Origin: Oegoconia quadripuncta
Lineage: Eukaryota; Arthropoda; Insecta; Lepidoptera; Autostichidae
Direction of reading: 5' to 3'
Assembly: GCA_949316235.1 (NCBI GenBank)
Contig: OX438751.1
Location: 17,236,801 to 17,300,800 of the forward strand
DNA: 64,000 nt
Shown here: one piece after another, positions 19,719 through 56,938 of the stretch
Layout: each line of letters starts with the position of its first letter
Numbering within the stretch: the first letter of the stretch is position 1
Notes under the pieces: model-generated
Database searches by the model: none
What the model saw: only the letters and a program-made list of their open reading frames with translations
What the model was told of the DNA's origin: nothing
Program-made: the position numbers and the translations under genes

Positions 19719-20649
19719 AGCGAAATGACTAAAGCGTATTTTTTTAAATCGGCCAGTAATTTTTCTCATCCTATGTTTTCGTTTGATCTCTTTAATCACG
19801 GCACACTTATTGCGGCATATCACTGCGCCTATGAAAGTCTCTTGGAGAAAAGACTTTGGGTGCACTTATTGAAGAACCAATCGTCCTTTCCCGACTCGAT
19901 GGTATGAAAATTATATTCACGCTGTTTGTGCTGACGGTGTTAGTACAAGTTTGAAGGGCGGCTCTATACAAAGGCGCGGGCTACAGGTGCTTAAATCGCG
20001 ATCAAACATAATCGAGACGAGCTCATCGCCGCCGCTCAGCTTTCCATTTCGCATAATCAACCCGTTCTGAACTTTTACCTAAATGCACGCACGGTGGAAC
20101 CCTTGCTCTACAACACCATTAACTAAATAAAACTTTAACTTGCTAAAGTGCTACAAAATATCGTTTATTATATTTCTAAATACATTTTCATTAATATCTA
20201 AACATATCAAGATAAACGTCAAATGGAATATAGCTACGATTCTAGAATGAAGAAATTTGGCCTTGACAACAAGACAAACAAGAAAACCATCGACGCAACA
20301 CAATATTTGTATATAAAGAACTGTAGCCCTCTTTTTCATAAAAAATTAAAAACGCTTTATAAGCATAGTTAAAGTATGTTTTGTCACTTTCTTTCATTAC
20401 AACATTTCCTTGTGAACGACAGAGACAAAAATGCTTTAACTAAAACAGTCTTATAAAGGGATTGTAAATTTTTATGAATAAGACTGTAAGATTATAACAT
20501 GGATGTGGAGACTATAATCTTTTTTTAATTTTTTCGAACACTTACACCTATCATCTAGTTCCAAACTAAGCAAAGCTTGTATTATTGGCACTAGATAAAC
20601 ATACTTAAATATTTATATAAATATCCAATAAATGTTCGTATTGTAAAAG
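19719..20649. other. Noncoding stretch left of the structured array
   Basis: AT-rich with no supported gene. In minus-strand orientation this is the region into which a transcript of the structured array would run. No strong minus-strand AATAAA is visible close to the left edge of the array. The run of C at 20651-20659 is the first compositional change. Confidence 0.35.
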
Positions 20650-20999
20650 ACCCCCCCCCTCTGAAAAAGATCTCTAACGCGCTCTCACTCTTTAAAAAGC
20701 AAGCTAACCGCGTAGAGCAGTTACAATTTACTCACTGAAGTCGAGACCTCGAATAGTTTATCAAACTGAAAATGTTAGCTAACCCTGAACCCACGTGAAA
20801 TTTATGAAATAGACTGAGATGCCGGTAATATATTGAAGCCCTAGGCATACTAGGTTAGTTTTGGCCTTGTGATCGTCTAGAACACCTACGTTGTGATAGT
20901 AATAGAACCCTGGTGTCTTTTTAGAGATTTACAGTACAAAATAAGATGGCGATCTAGAGGTAAGGTCCTGAGACGGTTAAGAAAATTTACATAAAAAGA

Positions 21000-21190
21000 G
21001 GTCCCGACCGCCGAAGACGATCGAGACCGGACTAGGCAAGGTATTCAGAATCTGTCAATTCTAAAGATTAAATGGAAAAGGGTCCCGCTTGCCGGTAGAC
21101 AAACGAGACCCAACTTGTAAAGTTGTAAGCGACTTAATTATGATTTTAAATAGAAAGGGGACCCGTTTGTCAGAACGACAAACGAGACCC
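21000..21190 (-). repeat. Module A: three tandem hairpins, about 79-bp period
   Basis: Hairpins lie at 21000-21028, 21080-21111 and 21158-21190. Each has a 5' arm beginning GGTCCCG-like and a 3' arm ending CGAGACC. The inner stem differs among copies (GACCG with GATC; GCTTG with CAAAC; GTTTGTC with GACAAAC) but remains paired. The same C/A mismatch occurs in all three; on the minus strand it is a G-U wobble. The minus-strand loop of the first copy contains CUUCGG. Confidence 0.8.
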
Positions 21191-21242
21191 AAATCTCACT
21201 AAAGGAATAATGCTTCTGAAGGAAGCCTAACTAGTTAGCCCC

Positions 21243-21356
21243 CATCTGAGTCCCCAGTCTTCAACATGAAAGTTGTAATCCTGGCAGCCCTCAGATGAGG
21301 GGCGGGTGGCGCCTCCTCCGCCACCCACGGTGGAGTCCGGCCATTATGGTGACTCC
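21243..21356 (-). repeat. Module C: nested stem-loops
   Basis: CATCTGAG (21243-21250) pairs with CTCAGATG (21290-21297). It encloses CCAG with CTGG and then CAAC with GTTG. Next comes a perfect 8-bp hairpin, GGGTGGCG with CGCCACCC (21304-21326), and then GGAGTC with GACTCC (21332-21356), which encloses CCA/TGG. These three adjacent structures use nearly all bases in the interval. Confidence 0.8.
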
Positions 21357-21405
21357 CCCCCAAAGGGGAGAAAAAGGGAGTAAATGATTGTCATCATCAA
21401 TTCAA

Positions 21406-21900
21406 CCGATACAATCGGCTGATGGTTTTAGGTATTTGGAAAAATATTCCACATGTCCAACTGATACAATCAGTTGGAACGCTGATAAATGTATTAAAAT
21501 TTACACTAATGCAATCAGTGTTATATAGTTACGAGTCAATTCGCAATACAGATCTAGTACAACTAGACCTAACTCTAAGAAGGAATAGATCCCTCTACTA
21601 TTTCAGCTCAAACGCCAGACCTTAGGTGAAGCGTAAAGTATTTGCATAAACTTCGAAGAAACCATGCCTCAGGAGGACACGTTACAAAAGTGTAGGTTTA
21701 TAATGGTAACAACCATTACTATGTAGTTAGATTTCAGTAATCACCAAAGGGTTTTGCGTTATACGGAATTTACACCCTAGGGCCCCACTCACACCCTTAC
21801 TCCCAGCGGGTATCAACAGTCATGCAAGTGATTTTCTAAGCGTGCCTAACACTTTCCCGAAAGTGATGATGAAATCTTTAAGTTCAACTGATACAATCAG
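21406..21900 (-). repeat. Module B: four hairpins with a three-base loop
   Basis: CCGAT-ACA-ATCGG (21406-21418), CCAACTGAT-ACA-ATCAGTTGG (21457-21477), ACACTAAT-GCA-ATCAGTGT (21503-21521) and CTGAT-ACA-ATCAG (21888-21900). Loop and flanking stem identity are kept while the outer stem bases change in pairs. The third copy has one A/C mismatch on the + strand, a U-G pair on the minus strand. Copies 1, 2 and 4 are followed by related CTGAT or CCGAT plus TATT-containing sequence, so the repeated unit is longer than the hairpin. Confidence 0.8.
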
Positions 21901-22302
21901 CCGATAAGTATTAATTAAGTCTCAAATATAGTTCCTATGCCTGAGGCAATTGAGCCTTCGGAAGTATTAAGTATTAGAATTTACAATATGAAATTTTAGG
22001 TCTTCCGCTGAACTAATATAGCAAGGGGTTTAGATAAGTTGTCGTTATTTAGCTTTATTTAGTGACAATCGTAGTTAAGAGGTGATAGAAACTTCCAAAA
22101 GAAGTATAGCTTCTACTGAGAGGAGATTGGTCAGTCTGCAATCTCGCCATGAGAGATTCGACTTGGGCCTAACCAATTTTAGGAAGAAACTAGTTATTCT
22201 TGAAACAAGTCATTGGATAATATTAAAACTGCCTGTAATGTTTAGGTAATCGAACTTTCTACCATTAGGTAGTTACATGTCAAACTCAACTGCGACATCA
22301 CC

Positions 22303-22343
22303 CAATAGCACATCCTTTCAGCCAAAGCCTGAATGTAATATTG
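22303..22343 (-). repeat. Module D, copy 1
   Basis: An outer stem CAATA/TATTG, then ACAT/ATGT, then TTCAG/CTGAA around a short loop. It sits directly before module E copy 1. Other copies are at 22604-22645 and 22915-22954. Confidence 0.75.
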
Positions 22344-22345
22344 GT

Positions 22346-22456
22346 GGTTGAATCCTTTACTGTAATCTAGCTCCCGCGATTCCTGTGGGCCATTCCCCTA
22401 TCGTCCATCCGGCGACCAGCGACCTCCCACAGAGAATCGTAACAGGCGATTCAACC
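22346..22456 (-). repeat. Module E, copy 1: long stem with conserved 36-base loop
   Basis: GGTTGAATC (22346-22354) pairs with GATTCAACC (22448-22456). The inner stem CGATTC, one bulged base, TGTGGG (22377-22389) pairs with CCCACA, GA, GAATCG (22426-22439). The loop 22390-22425 is 36 bases and contains CCCCTATCGTCCAT and CGGCGACCAGCGAC. The loop is almost unchanged in the diverged copy 3, whose stem sequence is entirely different. Confidence 0.85.
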
Positions 22457-22603
22457 TTACAGCCGTAGAGTATACTTCTGTTTGCCTACAAGACTACGGT
22501 GTAGTTTTTACCTTTAGATAAATTACTATCCCTGTACCATTACGTAGTTGCCACGCTGATAATGAGGCTAACCACAGATGTCAGTCTCCATTGCGATCCT
22601 TCC

Positions 22604-22645
22604 CAATAACACATCCTTCCGGCTACAAGCCTGAATGTACTATTG
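22604..22645 (-). repeat. Module D, copy 2
   Basis: CAATA/TATTG and ACAT/ATGT stems are kept. The inner stem is TCCGGCT against AGCCTGA, so one mismatch of copy 1 is repaired and another appears. Lies 301 bp from copy 1. Confidence 0.75.
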
Positions 22646-22647
22646 GT

Positions 22648-22758
22648 GGTTGAATCCTTTACTGTAATCTAGCTCCCGCGATTCCTGTGGGCCATTCCCC
22701 TATCGTCCATCCGGCGACCAGCGACCTCCCACAGAGAATCGTAACAGGCGATTCAACC
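22648..22758 (-). repeat. Module E, copy 2
   Basis: Essentially identical to copy 1, 302 bp away. The D-E block (about 22303-22500 and 22604-22790) was therefore duplicated in tandem fairly recently. It ends with GATTCAACC at 22750-22758. Confidence 0.85.
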
Positions 22759-22785
22759 TTACAGTCGTAGAGCATACTTCTGTCC

Positions 22786-22840
22786 CCCTACAAGACTCCC
22801 TTTCGATTACCTCTGAGAATCCTATCGGGGTAAACAGAGT
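22786..22840 (-). repeat. Module F, copy 1
   Basis: CTACAAGACTCCCTTTCGAT is followed by a stem CTCTG (22811-22815) pairing with CAGAG (22835-22839) that encloses GAATCCTATCGGGG. The second copy at 22978-23033 shares the leader and most of the loop. Confidence 0.7.
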
Positions 22841-22914
22841 TTCTGACAGTTATTATTCCTTTACACGCCTATCATACGAATTGCTTAGTTGTTAGTTTCC
22901 ATAACTCTCTTCCT

Positions 22915-22954
22915 CAATAATACATCCTTTCAGCATAGCCTGAATGTACTATTG
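22915..22954 (-). repeat. Module D, copy 3
   Basis: CAATA/TATTG and ACAT/ATGT stems are kept, with inner TTCAG/CTGAA. It stands without an adjacent module E; the next E copy is about 345 bp further right. Confidence 0.7.
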
Positions 22955-22977
22955 TTATTTGCATCCAATCTATATCT

Positions 22978-23033
22978 TCCTATAAGATTCCCTTTCGATC
23001 GTTATCTGAGAATCCTACTAGGGCAACAGACTT
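22978..23033 (-). repeat. Module F, copy 2
   Basis: CTATAAGATTCCCTTTCGAT leader, then TCTG (23005-23008) pairing with CAGA (23027-23030) around GAATCCTACTAGGG. Confidence 0.7.
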
Positions 23034-23299
23034 CTTTATAAAATATTGTACAACATGACATTAAAGCAGGTTTGGTTTTACGAATATAGTTGGCGAAGCA
23101 TCGCTTATCGTCAGTTAATTCCCTTTACGGTTTTTGTTAAGAAGGCGACTAAGGTGCTTAAAAGGCGATTAAGATATTCGAGCATTATTACGTATCACTC
23201 AATAAACGGACTAATATTTCGGTAGACCTCGATCCCAGGTTGATTTTCCTTAAAAGTATAGCTTAAAACTAATTTACGCTAGGTTTCCTTAAAACTATT

Positions 23300-23411
23300 G
23301 GTTGAATACCTTTCTTAAATTTCTCCCCACAACTCTTGATAAGCCATTCCCCTATCGTCCATTCGGCGACCAGCGACTTCTTATCAAGAGCTATGAATGG
23401 GCGTTTCAACC
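23300..23411 (-). repeat. Module E, copy 3 (diverged)
   Basis: The outer stem is GGTTGAA (23300-23306) with TTCAACC (23405-23411). The inner stem CTCTTGATAAG (23333-23343) pairs perfectly over 11 bp with CTTATCAAGAG (23380-23390). The enclosed loop 23344-23379 is exactly 36 bases and matches the loops of copies 1 and 2 at 34 positions by my count, although the inner stem has no sequence in common with theirs. This is the clearest compensatory-change evidence in the array. Confidence 0.88.
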
Positions 23412-23581
23412 ATTGATTCATATTTAAATCATCTAAAATGAGATGATTGAAATAAGGGTTTGGTTAGTAAACTTCTCCAGACTGAAGCCCCGTTTGGTCG
23501 ATGTTCGAACATCTAGCATGTATTCCCTCCCTACATGCTTTACGTGTTAACACGATTTTTGGTATCATTGCATATTCAATA

Positions 23582-23637
23582 GCCCGTAGGCCTTTTGTGT
23601 TCGTAAACACTGCGTGTCTCCACTCACCACTCACGCC
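23582..23637 (-). repeat. Module G, copy 1: triple hairpin
   Basis: Three consecutive small hairpins. GCC-CGTA-GGC; then GTGTT-CGTA-AACAC; then GCGTG with CACGC around a longer loop. On the minus strand the first is GCC(UACG)GGC, a canonical cUNCGg tetraloop, and the second also has a UACG loop. Confidence 0.8.
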
Positions 23638-23638
23638 A

Positions 23639-23682
23639 ATGGTTTCACCATAGTGACCATTTTTAGTGTGCCAGCTCACACT
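23639..23682 (-). repeat. Module I, copy 1
   Basis: ATGGT/ACCAT hairpin followed by AGTGTG-CCAGCT-CACACT (23665-23682). The same pair of hairpins recurs at 23859-23902, and a worn TAGTGCGCCAC remnant is at about 24641. Confidence 0.7.
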
Positions 23683-23711
23683 GTTTATTTGATATCCTTA
23701 GATATTCATTT

Positions 23712-23760
23712 GCCCGTAGGCTTTTAGTGTTCGTAAACACTGCGTGTCGCCACTCACGCC
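23712..23760 (-). repeat. Module G, copy 2
   Basis: GCC-CGTA-GGC, AGTGTT-CGTA-AACACT and GCGTG-TCGCCACT-CACGC. The middle stem extends to 6 bp. Confidence 0.82.
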
Positions 23761-23807
23761 AACGTGCCGTGCCACGTATTTTGGTATCCGCAGATCCATA
23801 TTTATTA

Positions 23808-23858
23808 GCCCGTAGGCCTTAGATGTTCGTAAACATCGAGCGTGTACCCACTCACGCT
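23808..23858 (-). repeat. Module G, copy 3
   Basis: GCC-CGTA-GGC, GATGTT-CGTA-AACATC and AGCGTG-TACCCACT-CACGCT. Relative to copy 2, two base pairs of the middle stem have changed on both sides while the CGTA loop (minus-strand UACG) is kept. Confidence 0.82.
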
Positions 23859-23902
23859 GATGGTTCACCTCAGTGACCATTCTAGTGTGCCACCTTCACA
23901 CT
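23859..23902 (-). repeat. Module I, copy 2
   Basis: ATGGT/ACCAT hairpin then AGTGTG-CCACCTT-CACACT (23884-23902), matching copy 1 in layout. Confidence 0.7.
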
Positions 23903-23911
23903 ATTAGATTG

Positions 23912-23945
23912 CTAGAACGGCGCCCAGAGGACGTTTCATACTAGA
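23912..23945 (-). repeat. Module H, copy 1
   Basis: CTAGAACGGC, then a stem GCCC (23922-23925) with GGAC (23929-23932), ending CTAGA. The stem contains a C/A mismatch on the + strand that is a G-U pair on the minus strand. Minus-strand loop UCU. Confidence 0.75.
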
Positions 23946-23949
23946 ACCT

Positions 23950-24000
23950 GCCCGTAGGCTTATTGACATCATAAGACATCGGCGTGTCCCTCATCACGCT
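23950..24000 (-). repeat. Module G, copy 4
   Basis: GCC-CGTA-GGC is kept, and GCGTG-TCCCTCAT-CACGC is kept. The middle hairpin is replaced by TTGACATCATAAGACATC, which pairs poorly. Confidence 0.75.
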
Positions 24001-24017
24001 TACTTCTTAACTGAATT

Positions 24018-24052
24018 CTAGAACGGCGCCCCAAGGGACGTATCATACTAGA
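24018..24052 (-). repeat. Module H, copy 2
   Basis: Stem GCCC (24028-24031) with GGAC (24036-24039). The minus-strand loop is CUUG, a known stable tetraloop. Confidence 0.75.
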
Positions 24053-24068
24053 TTCAGCCAGCAGTCTC

Positions 24069-24120
24069 GCCCGAAGGCTTGTAGACATCATTTGATATCT
24101 GGCATGTCGCTCGTCATGCT
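24069..24120 (-). repeat. Module G, copy 5
   Basis: The first hairpin is GCC-CGAA-GGC, which on the minus strand is GCC(UUCG)GGC. This changes UACG to UUCG and keeps the UNCG class. The middle stem is AGACATCA with TGATATCT (one C/A mismatch, G-U on the minus strand). The third stem is GCATG-TCGCTCGT-CATGC, a compensated G-C to A-T change. Confidence 0.85.
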
Positions 24121-24137
24121 TTATTGTGATCTGATTA

Positions 24138-24172
24138 CTAGAACGGCGCCCCGAAAGACGTTTCATACTAGA
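24138..24172 (-). repeat. Module H, copy 3
   Basis: Stem GCCC (24148-24151) with AGAC (24156-24159), minus-strand loop UUCG closed by a U-G pair. Confidence 0.75.
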
Positions 24173-24176
24173 ATCG

Positions 24177-24240
24177 GCCCGTAGGCTCGCCTGTAGGCTT
24201 ATAGACATCATTTGATATCTGGCGTGTAGCTCGTCACGCC
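24177..24240 (-). repeat. Module G, copy 6, with doubled first hairpin
   Basis: GCC-CGTA-GGC occurs at 24177-24186 and again as GCC-TGTA-GGC at 24189-24198. The latter reads UACA on the minus strand and is the only exception to the UNCG rule among the first hairpins. Then come the AGACATCA/TGATATCT stem and GCGTG-TAGCTCGT-CACGC. Confidence 0.8.
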
Positions 24241-24258
24241 TTATTTGTTAATTGGTTA

Positions 24259-24293
24259 CTAGAACGGCGCCCCGAAGGACGTATCGTACTAGA
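24259..24293 (-). repeat. Module H, copy 4
   Basis: Stem GCCC (24269-24272) with GGAC (24277-24280). Minus-strand hairpin GUCC(UUCG)GGGC with a canonical cUUCGg loop. G and H alternate with a period of about 120 bp from 23950 to 24293. Confidence 0.8.
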
Positions 24294-24856
24294 CAATGCT
24301 AAACGCAAGGTAAGCGATCAACGCCCACTATGAATTCAACATAATTTAAACGACTGTTCAAAATGCTTGAAGCATTCAGCCGACACAACATTATATAACT
24401 AGGAAGAACATTCTTCCATATGAGGTGCTCAACCCACCTCTAAGTCCATCAAGGAACTTCGTTTAGACGCCGCAGCGTATCATCCTTTACTTAGGATTTA
24501 CCAAATGTGAGATTTTATTGCGATTTCACTATGCGAGAAATTCTCATACAAGAGACATCAACGCATCTTCATTTCCAATCACCCTACGTGAGAATGATTA
24601 TAATTTTGCTTTCATGTTCGATCAATTGCAAATGCTTTTCTAGTGCGCCACCACCACACTGTTATGCAAGGAAGCTTGAAACGCCAGGAGGAGGCCAGGC
24701 CATCGTCACCACTCGATGCCTTTTAAAGTAAGTTTTTTATTTGTTCGGCGTTTCCACGCGCGATCTACCAACACACTTTGGTACGCGCGCGGCACTCGGC
24801 CGATCTGGCCGGCGTCGCTTCCTCGCATCTTGTATTAAACTCACAAGCCTCCTCCC

Positions 24857-24866
24857 CATATATACC
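24857..24866 (-). promoter_or_regulatory. TATA-like box on the minus strand
   Basis: Minus strand GGTATATATGG, within a locally GC-rich stretch (24740-24890), about 130-250 bp to the right of the array. A start 25-30 bases downstream would fall near 24830, just before the array in minus-strand orientation. No clear initiator was found. This is consistent with, but does not prove, minus-strand transcription of the array. Confidence 0.35.
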
Positions 24867-25174
24867 AGCAGCGGGTTATGACCGTCCGCCTTAAGGTAAC
24901 ATAGAAGAATACACAACAATTACGAAATTGCTAAAATTCGAGATATAGGACCCACTGCTAACTGAAATGAATTCCTCATTTTCATTTTTGTGAAATACCC
25001 CCCTAGTTTTCCAATAAATCAAGTTTTTGTTATTAAGATTGGATTTTAAGTGGAATCATTTTAAAATACTACCTGACCTAGAAAAGTGTGCCCTAACTAC
25101 TTTATTACTCTTTAATAAGCTTGTACCCCCTCGAACCCACAAAATGCCTCACACACTGAATTTGTATCAACGGT
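24867..25174. other. Noncoding stretch, nothing recognised
   Basis: AT-rich sequence between the candidate minus-strand promoter and a SINE; no credible ORF. Confidence 0.35.
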
Positions 25175-25295
25175 ACGCTTGTGTTCCGTTACAGTATTCA
25201 TCACATAAACCTTTACCCCGCGCGGGATTCGAACTCGCCACCGTTGGTTTCGCTGACAGGGTCACTATCTCTACACCAATCGGTCGTCAAATCTC
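25175..25295 (-). repeat. tRNA-derived SINE family 2 (variant), 5' part
   Basis: On the minus strand: GACGACCGATTGGTGTAGAG, GTGACCCTGTCAGCGAAACC, then B box GTTCGAATCC followed by CGCGCGGGGTAAAGG. It is the same variant as the copy at 48750. The body past TGATGAATAC is not retained. Confidence 0.85.
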
Positions 25296-46379: not shown

Positions 46380-47156
46380 CGGCGGCACGGCGCGGCTCTC
46401 ACAGTGCATAAATAGTGATGGGAAGCATCGACGCAGCGAGTAATGCGAATAAATGCTTCGATACGATCGGCTCACCGTTTAACAAGAGAGTCTTTTCCGC
46501 ACCGCGGTGAGCCATTTAGCGAATTTCAATAGTTATCGCGCGGAGAAAAACTCGCTTGTCGAGTAGGACAGACGTGGGCATCGCTGTTGGCGTGAGCGAG
46601 ACGGACGTCATAAGAAAGAAGTAATAAAAAAGCGGTTGTGTGTGCGTGGTCGGAGTGTGGTGGCATAGGGCGGCGATGCAGGCCCCTCCCTGTGGCGCAC
46701 CGCCTCGCCGCCTCGCCGCCGCCTCAGTTGAGTCGACATCGCGCCGCGTCTCACCGGTCGGTCCGCTCTATCCGTGTCCACAGGCTCGCGTAAAAAGTTT
46801 ATACTATTCCGAAACTTTCGCCTACTGTGAATATACAATTTAACTGACGTTGATAATTCTTTTCAACAAAATATAGTATTAAATTATTAACAGAAAGAGT
46901 TTAAAGAAGTTTGTGTACTTTGTTTATTGTGTTTCAAGATTTCAGTAACTGGGAAAGTTCTGATTCATAATTTTTATAGTCTGACAGTTGAATTATATTA
47001 TTAAAAAGCTTCACTGTTGATTTCTTCCTAAAACCATAATCCACGCATTATCTACGGCTAACTTAAAATTCACATATAGTGTGAACGGACGTCAGCAAGA
47101 CGTCAGCGAGAGAGTTTTCTAAGTTGAGATTGCACAGACTATGTTCAGTGCCATCG
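46380..47156 (+). promoter_or_regulatory. Probable promoter and 5' UTR of the T-box gene
   Basis: The interval from 46370 to 46800 becomes GC-rich and CpG-containing immediately upstream of the first coding exon. An ATAAATA at 46408-46414 could serve as a weak TATA box. The 46850-47140 part is AT-richer and could be 5' UTR or contain a 5' UTR intron; no junction can be fixed from sequence alone. GACGTCAGC is directly repeated at 47089-47108. Confidence 0.4.
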
Positions 47157-47176
47157 ATGGGATGTTCAGACGGTGA
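47141..47176 (+). CDS. Upstream ORF overlapping the main start
   Basis: An ATG at 47141 opens an 11-codon frame that ends TGA at 47174-47176. It overlaps the in-frame start at 47157 in a different frame. If transcription starts upstream, ribosomes would meet this ATG first. Its context is weak (GACTATGT), so leaky scanning is likely. No peptide function is implied. Confidence 0.4.
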   Translation: MFSAIDGMFRR

Positions 47177-47403
47177 CGGCGCGTGGACTGGCGACAGATT
47201 GGGATCGGAGGCGGTCAACTTGATGCTGCTGCAGGGCGAGAGCCGGGAGCGGCCGGGGCTGGCGGTGGCCATGGAGGAGGACTGCTCCGCGAGGCCCTGC
47301 GCCACGGACTTCTCCATTGCGGCCATCATGGCCAGGGATCGGCAGGAAAGGCGAGAGAGGCGGAGACATAGAGACCCTAGAGAAGATACACTAACACCTT
47401 TAG
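47157..47403 (+). CDS. mid/H15: T-box transcription factor (Tbx20/midline/H15 class), coding exon 1
   Basis: Encodes residues 1-82 and the first base of codon 83. The protein is a nuclear DNA-binding regulator expected to act in heart, nervous-system and segment patterning, as Tbx20-class proteins do in insects and vertebrates. Residues 50-61 read TDFSIAAIMARD, containing an eh1-like FSIxxI motif that in this class recruits Groucho-type corepressors. An Arg/Glu-rich stretch follows (residues 60-76). The exon ends TTAG with a strong donor GTAAGT (47404-47409), phase 1. The first in-frame ATG is 47157 with poor context. Met39 at 47271 has a near-ideal context (GTGGCCATGG) and may be the true or alternative start, leaving the eh1 motif only 13 residues from the N-terminus. 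The class is assigned from this motif plus exon 2. Whether it is the midline or the H15 paralogue cannot be decided here. Confidence 0.85.
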
Positions 47404-48112
47404 GTAAGTCTGATATAATTTTTCCCACTTGTGATTAAGTAAGATTTTTTGATGATAATAACATTACCTACCTTGTACTAATTTACCGTAAATGATTTTA
47501 AATTACATGATTTTATAAAGATTATAAATAAATAAATATATTTAGTTACTAATTATTATATATAATCTTCAATATATTATTGACACGTGAAATATCAATA
47601 TTTCAATAATTTGAAAATCATGAATATTGATTTAAATATTTAATATCTATCTAAATTAAAATTTTGTAATAAATGTTTTCTAAATGTATCAAAATAATTT
47701 CTTAGTAGGTACTTTTTTGTAGTTCCTTCTAACTTCAGACACTTTAAAATTAATTAAATATTACATTTATATTATTTTTTAAAAGTTACAATTAATAAAA
47801 TTTTAATGTAGCACTAACAATTTCATACTCATAGGTTTTTTTATTTTAATGTTATTTGTTTCTTGTCAAAAGATTTATTAAGAGATATTAGATTATATAT
47901 TCTTTACAAATTTATTTCTTTTTTATATTAATTAATTTTCCGAATATTATCTATTGATGCCAATGAAAATAATACATGTAGATATCGTAAAAGTTTCTAG
48001 TGAATTTCAAATGATTAATATATTAATGTAGTTACACAGTATAGCTGCCTACATCATGAAATTATAATGTATTCTATATAAATCATTATCAATTTATCAA
48101 CAAGCTACAGAG

Positions 48113-48749: not shown

Positions 48750-48950
48750 AAAGACGACCTATTGGTGTAGTAGATAGTGACCCTGTCAGCGAAACCAACG
48801 GTTGCGGGTTCGAATCCCGCGACGGGTAAATGTTTGTGTGATGAATACGAACATTTATTCCCGAATTACGGATGTTTATATAAATATTTATATGTTTATC
48901 CGTTAGTACAGTATCCATAGTACAAGCTAAATATAAAAAAAAATCACATC
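48750..48950 (+). repeat. tRNA-derived SINE family 2 (variant)
   Basis: Head GACGACCTATTGGTGTAGTA, GTGACCCTGTCAGCGAAACC, perfect B box GGTTCGAATCC (48807-48817), CGCGACGGGTAAATG, then TGTGATGAATACGAACATTT. The 3' part differs from the copies at 25627 and 40008. Inside T-box intron 1. Confidence 0.9.
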
Positions 48951-54715: not shown

Positions 54716-55582
54716 GCCGTATTTTTTTACTGCTGGAAACTTGAATATGGCCGCAGCCCTAAGTTATTGATATTGATTCTAAAGTGATACCTCCAGCCTT
54801 TTCTGAGAAAAAGGGTCTTAATTCATAGACAGACACAGCCAGATAAACAACACAATGATACTATACGGGCTCCGTTTTTCCAAAATAAGGTACGGAACCC
54901 TACGAAAAAAAATTATATTTTTAGTGTTCCGTCACAGACTTAATATGTTCCATGACAAATAGGTATGCCAAACCTCTTCTGAAATCACCTCGGTTTCTGT
55001 AGACCTGTCACCGCCATTTATTTCAGATAATATTTGAAATATGGTTATACAAAATGATGGGTGAAAATTAGGCGCGAAAAAAGGTAGAGTTATATTTTTA
55101 AGGAGCTAAATGGAAAATTCGCTTCGAACGCTATATGGATATGATGATGATGATGAAATGGAAAATTTTATTGGATAGAATACATATTAAATTGGATATT
55201 ATAATGAAAGCAAGATTTCAAATAAAAGAACATATTTTACTTTATAAAATTTTTGCAGCTTGTGCAAAATACTGTGTCCTTCGAAGCTGCTGGCTTTGCT
55301 AATCGTTTTGAACAGTAAGAACAACCCCGTCATTTTAAAAATGCAAAGTCAAAATTATGTTAACTCTATGTTAACTAACTAAACTAACTAAATAAGAGTA
55401 CATTAGCTACTTATGTAATTTATGTAAGCAACTGTTAGTCTCTCAAATAAATAAATAAATAATTTACACTGAATTTATGTGATCCAGTCAATTATAACAA
55501 TATTTTAGAAACCTTAAAGGCCTCTTAAAATGCCCCAATCTCAAGATTTCTATGTCCTAACAACCATTGTGACATGTTTCAG

Positions 55583-55868
55583 AAAAATTCGTCGATGCTG
55601 CGGCGTCGGCGTCGGGGTCTCCATCGCCACCTTTAGCCGAATTCGAGAGAGACTCTCCAGTTGACGTGTCTTCAACATCAGAGGCTGGCTCGGCAAGCGG
55701 CACGGCGAGCGGCTCCCGAGCCCTTTCCCCACCACCTCGTAACCCCCAACTAGCCGAGCGCTGGTCCAGCGAAGAAATGCGGCACATACAGTGTCACCTT
55801 GAAACTAAGGAATTATGGGACAAGTTTAACGAATTAGGAACCGAAATGATCATCACCAAGACAGGAAG
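55583..55868 (+). CDS. mid/H15: T-box transcription factor (Tbx20/midline/H15 class), exon 2, start of T-box
   Basis: Encodes the rest of codon 83 through residue 177 and two bases of 178. Residues 83-140 are a low-complexity Ser/Ala/Pro/Gly linker. The T-box DNA-binding domain begins around residue 148: MRHIQCHLETKELWDKF, then NELGTEMIITKTG and R split by the intron. LETKELWDKF and LGTEMIITK are near-invariant in T-box proteins. The combination with an eh1-like N-terminus points to the Tbx20/mid/H15 class. The acceptor is TGTTTCAG (55575-55582) and the donor is AAG followed by GTAAGA (55869), phase 2. The remaining T-box (MFP-type motif onwards) and C-terminus are not in the window. Confidence 0.93.
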
Positions 55869-56938
55869 GTAAGACCTTTTATTACTTTGTTATGTAATCT
55901 GGAAGGGTAGGCATATAAGTGTGAACGTCTTGTCTTTTCAAGATAGGCTAGTAATTGTTATTCCGAGAGTGTAAACAAATCTTTATCAAATCGTGCTTCA
56001 TTTAAAACAAACATTTTGGTGTACAACAAGAATATCCTAGGCGCATTGACGTAGGTTAATTATTAGTAATTGAGTAGTTGGGCGTTTCGAATTGGCTATT
56101 AGGCGTTATCCCTGGTCGGGGCTTAAAAAATCGTGGCGGTAGGTAATCGAGACGTAATGTTGGTTAACGAAATCAAGGCAACATCGACAGCGCGCGTCGG
56201 AGGCGATAAGGTAGGTGGCACAGTGAGCGGCAGTGCGAGGCGTGTCGGTTGCGCCGCGCAGGCGAACAATGGGCAATCGACCGCCGTAGCAGCCACCGCC
56301 ACGGTGGCCGTATGCAAAACAACGCCTTTATATTTACGGATTTAACCTTCAATAGCAGTATATAGAGCTATTTGAACTCGATTAGCTAATAACTTCTTAA
56401 AACAAACATTCTAGAGTAATGTGGAGCGGATCTGGTCAGCAAAGACCAAGAACCAACCTGGTTTGGCTCGGATCTCAGAAGCGTCAGACCAGACCATTAA
56501 AGGCAATATGCTTCTTAGGATGAAGGAGTATAGAGCTGCGGTCATACCGCAGCGGTCTTGCACTGACCGCTATGAGGAATATTTCTAAGTCCTGAGTGAC
56601 AGCGCATCTGTAAATTTTCACCTGAATTTTATTTCAAGTACTATCAGGCTTGTCGTTAGTTTACGGGTGATAGGCGCTTTATCACTTTCCAACAAGAGAG
56701 TTCTTTTATTATCTGGACTTATAAAATAAGTAAAGTGAAATCAAACTACTTATTTCACGGGATACACAATGACCACTTTCAATCGTCACAAAGTTTTACT
56801 TAAAATTACCACACATTCTCAAGACTGAGTGCTCAGATTCCACTGAGGAGAAAGTGGAAATAACTCTAGGGTTGTTCGCTTAAAAAAGAACGGTAAATTG
56901 CACGTTGGCAATCAGATCAGACCTTTTCGTCTAATGAA

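Follow-up and report, generated by a model that had tools for sequence, protein, structure and literature searches.

A 4-kb array of hairpin modules in Oegoconia quadripuncta lies in the long terminal repeat of a dispersed retrotransposon

The window analysed here is a stretch of 64,000 nucleotides from the lepidopteran Oegoconia quadripuncta (contig OX438751.1, positions 17,236,801 to 17,300,800 of the forward strand). Within it, positions 20650-24730 had been marked in an initial annotation, made from the letters alone, as a noncoding array of recurring hairpin modules, and interpreted as a large structured RNA or an element that carries one. Our results show that the interval belongs to a long terminal repeat (LTR). 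It is very probably the 4552-bp solo LTR (minus strand, 20642-25193) of a recently active, non-autonomous LTR retrotransposon of about 11.8 kb in its whole form. A striking non-coding hairpin array is hence explained as part of a mobile element: the second half of the initial interpretation holds, and a stand-alone RNA locus is no longer tenable. The lower limit of the annotated interval was nearly right (20650 for an element start at 20642), while the element extends on the other side to 25193.

The evidence for this identity comes from a search of the 622.6-Mb assembly, in which copy counts are lower bounds. A 601-bp piece of the array matched at least 22 LTR copies, the window's included, with at least 96% identity over at least 520 bp, and partial and diverged LTR matches were found besides these near-identical ones. 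Homology spanned the window from about 20641 or 20653 to 25193 in 18 of the 20 stretches fetched, inserts or deletions being allowed; of the other two, one was partial (L024, on C13) and one produced no piece as long as 250 bp with the setting used (L028, on C20). The LTR ends are TG...CA, with copies reading TGTAACGG...TCTTT(T)ACA and the window LTR, delimited by copy homology edges, end motifs and length, reading TGTAACGG...TCTTTTACA. A 4-bp target-site duplication (TSD) flanked 15 of the 15 insertions for which both outer ends were read; L011 and L026, with one outer end read each, are outside this count. Nine of these insertions are solo LTRs (the window, L012, L021, L022, L025, L027, L038, L039 and L040) and six carry two or more LTRs (on C11, C3, C4, C2, C8 and C13). 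L025 and L026 (C3, 2.04 and 2.06 Mb) may not be independent insertions, because the 5470-base segment that carries the LTR is 100% identical between them, 20 kb apart, as a consequence of either a recent segmental duplication or an assembly duplication. Copy number and TSDs, which the initial annotation had put forward as the means of telling a single-locus RNA from a mobile element, therefore speak for the latter. Its statement that no known class of transposon fits does not hold.

The insertion in the window can be read against its own empty site. When joined, the flanks match a short interspersed element (SINE) at window 48753-48900 across the junction, with 86% identity, so that the LTR must have split a SINE, which is tRNA-derived by its look and lies at 25198-25288, with its other part at about 20594-20637. 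The two TSD copies, GTAT on the plus strand (ATAC in element sense), lie at 20638-20641 and 25194-25197, in agreement with this match. Recombination between two LTRs would explain the solo form.

Whole elements are found at six loci, where two or more LTRs surround an interior in a single orientation. They measure about 11.8 kb, with 4.55 kb for each LTR and 2.75 kb for the interior. In all five pairs that were compared, the LTRs are separated by no more than one substitution and one gap column, so these insertions are very recent. Interiors amount in the genome to 8 near-complete ones at 96-100% identity, 1 truncated one and 2 fragments. The one copy read, on C11, has no open reading frame (ORF) above 65 amino acids and hence no gag-pol, which makes the element non-autonomous; the interior does not show repeats of the kind found in the array. 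On C11 the LTR is followed by ATTGGTGCCGTGACCAGGAT, in the layout of a primer-binding site (PBS), which we take to match tRNA-His, and the orientation given by this PBS-like start agrees with the structured strand of the array. A G-rich and only partly purine tract, TTTTGGCGGGCGAG, lies before the 3′ LTRs. A further locus (L011, C5 8.74 Mb) shows a 5′ LTR with a near-complete interior, although the genome search listed a single LTR match on C5.

Some loci depart from this plan. Two LTRs of about 4.84 kb (L038, C1 37.3 Mb; L039, C9 23.46 Mb) match one block of the array, the D-E block described below, twice, 306-308 bp apart, which suggests that they hold an extra block; block number varies between LTR copies. 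On C13 (L023, L024 and L036, 14.22-14.23 Mb) three LTRs alternate with two interiors. A large deletion is shared by the second and third LTRs, each of which is about 2.5 kb long, retains its two ends and lacks the same part.

A tentative layout of the LTR can be drawn from two motifs on the minus strand. TATATAT at 24858-24864 is a candidate TATA box that would place the transcription start near 24835, and AATAAA at 24736-24741 is a candidate poly(A) signal, at which a short R would end. On these grounds U3 would cover about 358 bp (24836-25193, limits from the position of the TATA box), followed by the short R and by a U5 some 4 kb long. The putative U3 is weakly structured, with 78 predicted pairs/kb on the sense strand, compared to 155 in R-U5 and 132 in the interior; the antisense strand has 127 in R-U5 and 100 in the interior, both below the sense strand. 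With such a layout the whole array would sit in the leader of the genomic RNA (R-U5), just upstream of the PBS.

The array itself is made as initially described, with modules A to I at the places given for them, all on the minus strand. Starting from the presumed 5′ end of the RNA, a terminal 11-bp helix closes a 163-nt domain (24665-24827) and adjoins that end. It is followed by the I hairpins (24642-24660, 23883-23903 and 23665-23682), and by an alternation of G and H modules that repeats with a 120-bp period at 23950-24293. G is a triple hairpin, several of its loops being UACG or UUCG (24189-24241, 24069-24120, 23950-24000, 23808-23858, 23712-23760 and 23582-23637), and H is a hairpin (24256-24295, 24135-24174, 24014-24054 and 23910-23946). 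The D module holds a near-invariant internal loop within a rewritten stem (23299-23411, 22647-22757 and 22345-22455). E hairpins (22978-23024 and 22785-22831) are weakly related to C hairpins (22912-22957, 22601-22649 and 22300-22347), and the D-E block is duplicated with an offset of 301-302 bp. B hairpins occupy 21395-21911 (21402-21422, 21456-21478, 21503-21521 and 21884-21904), and three A hairpins lie 79 bp apart at 20997-21193. Covariance models built for each module, another proposal of the initial annotation, recovered in the window six G (E≤8e-14), three D and three C modules, all inside the array; other matches were weak (E 0.011 and up), some of them outside the array, and the C model weakly matched E. 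The absence of a credible ORF was borne out: the longest stop-to-stop frame in 20650-24730 has 92 amino acids, is spurious, and found no relatives in the protein collection at E≤1. We also observed an AAAGG motif that recurs in modules C, D and E (22318-23313, minus strand), often before the 3′ arm of the stem.

The array of hairpins stands up to analysis, with a structural bias towards the minus strand. To place the fold in context, 28 strand-stretches of 4.2 kb from the window were compared by their number of pairs predicted at p>0.7. The minus strand of 20640-24839 ranked on top with 653 pairs (next best 559) and with 62 helices of at least 5 bp (next best 59), and block-wise dinucleotide shuffles of the array (n=200) gave 414 ± 48 pairs with a maximum of 531. 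Mean fold z over 33 windows was −1.27 in the array versus −0.22 elsewhere for the minus strand, and −0.97 versus −0.25 for the plus strand. Hairpins of the cUNCGg type occur nine times on the minus strand of the array and never on the plus strand, for a shuffle mean of 0.5 and a maximum of 3 (n=200). Furthermore, G-U makes up 0.142 of the predicted helix pairs on the minus strand and 0.063 on the plus strand, the lowest share of the 28 strand-stretches. A strand-neutral count of inverted-repeat mismatches points the same way, with 8 G-T versus 2 A-C in the minus view of the array, compared to 33/30 and 102/113 (G-T/A-C) outside it. If the RNA exists, the minus strand would be the RNA strand; this assignment, already made in the initial annotation, agrees with the sense strand of the element.

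Comparison of modules within the LTR yielded compensatory changes. The inner stem of D has been rewritten between copies with the internal loop nearly unchanged: 7 pairs change on both sides, compared to 3.6 for shuffles (6 of 500 reaching that count) and 1-3 for slid partners, the count resting on 2 distinct rows. Module A has 2 two-sided changes (44 of 500 shuffles equally high), and modules B, G1 and G2 contribute further compensated pairs. In ten hand-registered module stems pooled, cognate arms paired in 274 of 285 cells, compared to a mean of 247.7 for swapped arms, a value reached in 1 of 200,000 swaps, although this test is biased, the arms having been taken from minus-strand folds and the outer arms of H in varying registers.

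What could such a leader do? Our tentative proposal, the likeliest of the roles considered, is that it acts in cis, through repeated protein-binding hairpins that would serve packaging, dimerisation or priming. Gag and reverse transcriptase from an autonomous helper would act on the non-coding RNA in trans, and an RNA moved in this manner would have to carry packaging, dimerisation and priming signals, for which the repeated hairpins are candidates. Other roles in cis, such as stability, nuclear retention or escape from silencing, share the probability left over by this proposal and by the by-product explanation given below. We are more doubtful of a stronger proposition, that the 4-kb modular leader was built by duplication of hairpins and is kept folded by selection. 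It would then offer many docking sites for the helper's Gag or for host factors, the non-coding element would out-compete its helper, and the expandable hairpin array in the LTR would be the adaptive part.

Several observations weigh against a functional leader or against parts of the layout proposed for it. The plus strand of the array folds with 532 pairs, above the shuffle maximum of 531, as expected of inverted-repeat DNA. When arms were anchored at fixed points and scored by duplex energy, the swap test gave a weaker result than the hand-registered stems: 107 of 50,000 swaps were as good, modules C, E and A showed no gain, and a signal appeared on the plus strand too (500 of 50,000). This test covered 22 copies of 7 modules, two of the D rows being identical, and caught 4 of 6 G2 and 2 of 3 A copies. 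There are seven AATAAA in the LTR in all, six of them besides the one chosen as the end of R. The PBS-like form ATTGGTGCCGTGACC is found at one of nine interior starts, that of C11, and the other eight read ATTAGAGTT[G/A]CCGTGAC in place of its perfect primer site. Lastly, no autonomous helper was found in a search made with interior DNA only.

The comparison of element copies is equally unhelpful to selection on pairing. Eighteen young LTR copies, 98.3-99.1% identical to the window LTR and not independent as both LTRs of an element were counted, vary at 58 of 1,406 paired and 173 of 3,146 unpaired sites, that is, only slightly less where paired. Their distinct one-sided changes break a pair 34 times and keep it 22 times, and they create G-U 12 times and A-C 11 times, with no G-U bias. 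Little current constraint on pairing is visible among them. The LTR on C20 is collinear, with 66-75% identity in pieces of at least 100 columns; it keeps 36 of 100 changed pairs, and the 7 that are compensated do not exceed the control, where partners slid by 1-3 give 0-8. Its plus strand folds better than its minus strand (147 versus 89 pairs/kb), the minus strand does not exceed that of its flank (90 pairs/kb), and it has a single cUNCGg hairpin. It is probably a decayed copy and hence a weak test of the structure, yet it lends it no help. A partial relative on C19, matched by models D and C at E 2.3e-12 and 1.4e-14, keeps 8 of 16 changed pairs, none compensated. Covariation, a check proposed in the initial annotation, was hence found between modules within the LTR and not, above control, between element copies.

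The main rival explanation, which we consider unlikely, is that tandem duplication and the growth of palindromes within the LTR produced the hairpins as a by-product, devoid of RNA function. It would account for the lack of pairing constraint above control in the young and C20 copies, and for the differences in block number between LTRs. On the other hand, a process at the DNA level predicts no strand bias, yet cUNCGg hairpins are distributed 9 to 0, G-U exceeds A-C by 36 to 3 in hand-chosen module stems and by 8 to 2 in the strand-neutral count, and cognate arms pair better than swapped ones. Capture from a structured RNA gene of the host, now carried inside the LTR, is an improbable origin. 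The array is rich in RNA-like structure and the interior is devoid of such repeats, as capture would have it, and no Rfam family is recognised in it; against it, the genome hits examined, some of which were not read as far as their ends, included no recognisable host copy that stands apart and lacks LTR ends.

A nuclear scaffold, that is, a single-locus long noncoding RNA with tandem protein-binding hairpins in the manner of roX1/roX2 or the Xist A-repeat, in which several hairpin modules are joined in one RNA, is the explanation that we had favoured first. Minus-strand structure, the TATA-like box, UNCG loops and repeated modules all suit it, and it shares with those RNAs, as a comparison of workings only, the multiplicity of hairpin modules. 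It did not survive the genome search, as a single-locus gene is refuted by the many dispersed and nearly identical copies, with their TSDs and LTR pairs, and it is now hardly credible. Moreover, a roX-like RNA is expected to carry roX boxes in stem-loops (we take the consensus to be GUUNUACG and the pattern GTTNTACG), and the latter is not enriched, with 9 occurrences in the window for 8.4 expected and none on the minus strand of the array.

Among known elements, the retrotransposon resembles large retrotransposon derivatives (LARDs), such as Sukkula of grasses, with LTRs near 4.5 kb around a core of some 3.5 kb, which encodes no protein and in which their structure is placed. Here the LTR measures 4552 bp, the core, 2.75 kb, is without ORFs in the copy read, and insertions are recent. 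The host is an insect, and the likeness is one of size and non-coding core; unlike in LARDs, most of the structure is found in the LTR, where repeated modules form arrays. The element is hence LARD-like by its size and lack of coding, and an LTR retrotransposon by the features tested. It shares with terminal-repeat retrotransposons in miniature (TRIMs), such as Cassandra and the PbTRIM of an ant, the condition of a non-autonomous LTR element without gag or pol; TRIM LTRs are short, whereas this one measures 4.55 kb and matches no Rfam family. PMC7215508 describes LARDs and TRIMs as specifying well-conserved RNA secondary structures, assumes that proteins of autonomous elements mobilise such non-coding ones, and reports a sequence like 5S ribosomal RNA in the LTRs of Cassandra. 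LARDs make up 8.84% of a moth genome according to PMC10923946.

What distinguishes the present element is a 4-kb, module-built and strand-biased hairpin array inside an unusually long and structured repeat. It offers a clean example, from an insect, of a recently mobile long-LTR retrotransposon that lacks coding signal, and it shows that de novo calls of structured RNA at one locus need a check of copy number. If the structure of the leader is functional, it would make a tractable system for the study of gene-less parasitic RNAs that recruit the machinery of another element.

Other candidates were tried and dropped. Rfam 15 covariance models gave no match in the window at gathering score; at a permissive threshold the best weak match in 20300-25000 was snR75 with E 0.78, which is chance level, and a small nucleolar RNA was rejected on that account. 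A microRNA or hairpin-RNA precursor was rejected because no uninterrupted predicted helix exceeds 16 bp. Telomerase RNA, which PMC9841428, with its candidates from Lepidoptera, presents as short, with a type 3 promoter and a template, was set aside as the array is a 4.5-kb dispersed LTR; near 20858, an 8-mer that looks like a template on visual inspection overlaps a predicted helix. There was no match to phages and plasmids by blastn, none to the exact core patterns in collections of viral contigs and genome contigs, and no structured or long noncoding RNA like the array among the literature matches listed.

A few minor observations concern the surroundings and the element copies. Two primer-region forms (seen in L029, L014, L016 and others) coexist in interiors that otherwise share 96-100% identity. 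Between two LTR copies on C3, an open frame of 357 amino acids (L031, 1205-2278, plus strand) has what we take to be the look of a mariner-type transposase. Of the 58 window frames with at least 80 amino acids, 16 were compared to Pfam, and a T-box domain alone scored above its cut-off, two weak matches being below theirs. Its first part is encoded at 55573-55872 (and at 47085-47438), both on the plus strand, with a Pfam E value of 3.2e-7. An upstream frame contains an FSIAAIM motif, and the gene is presumably of the Tbx20/H15/midline type.

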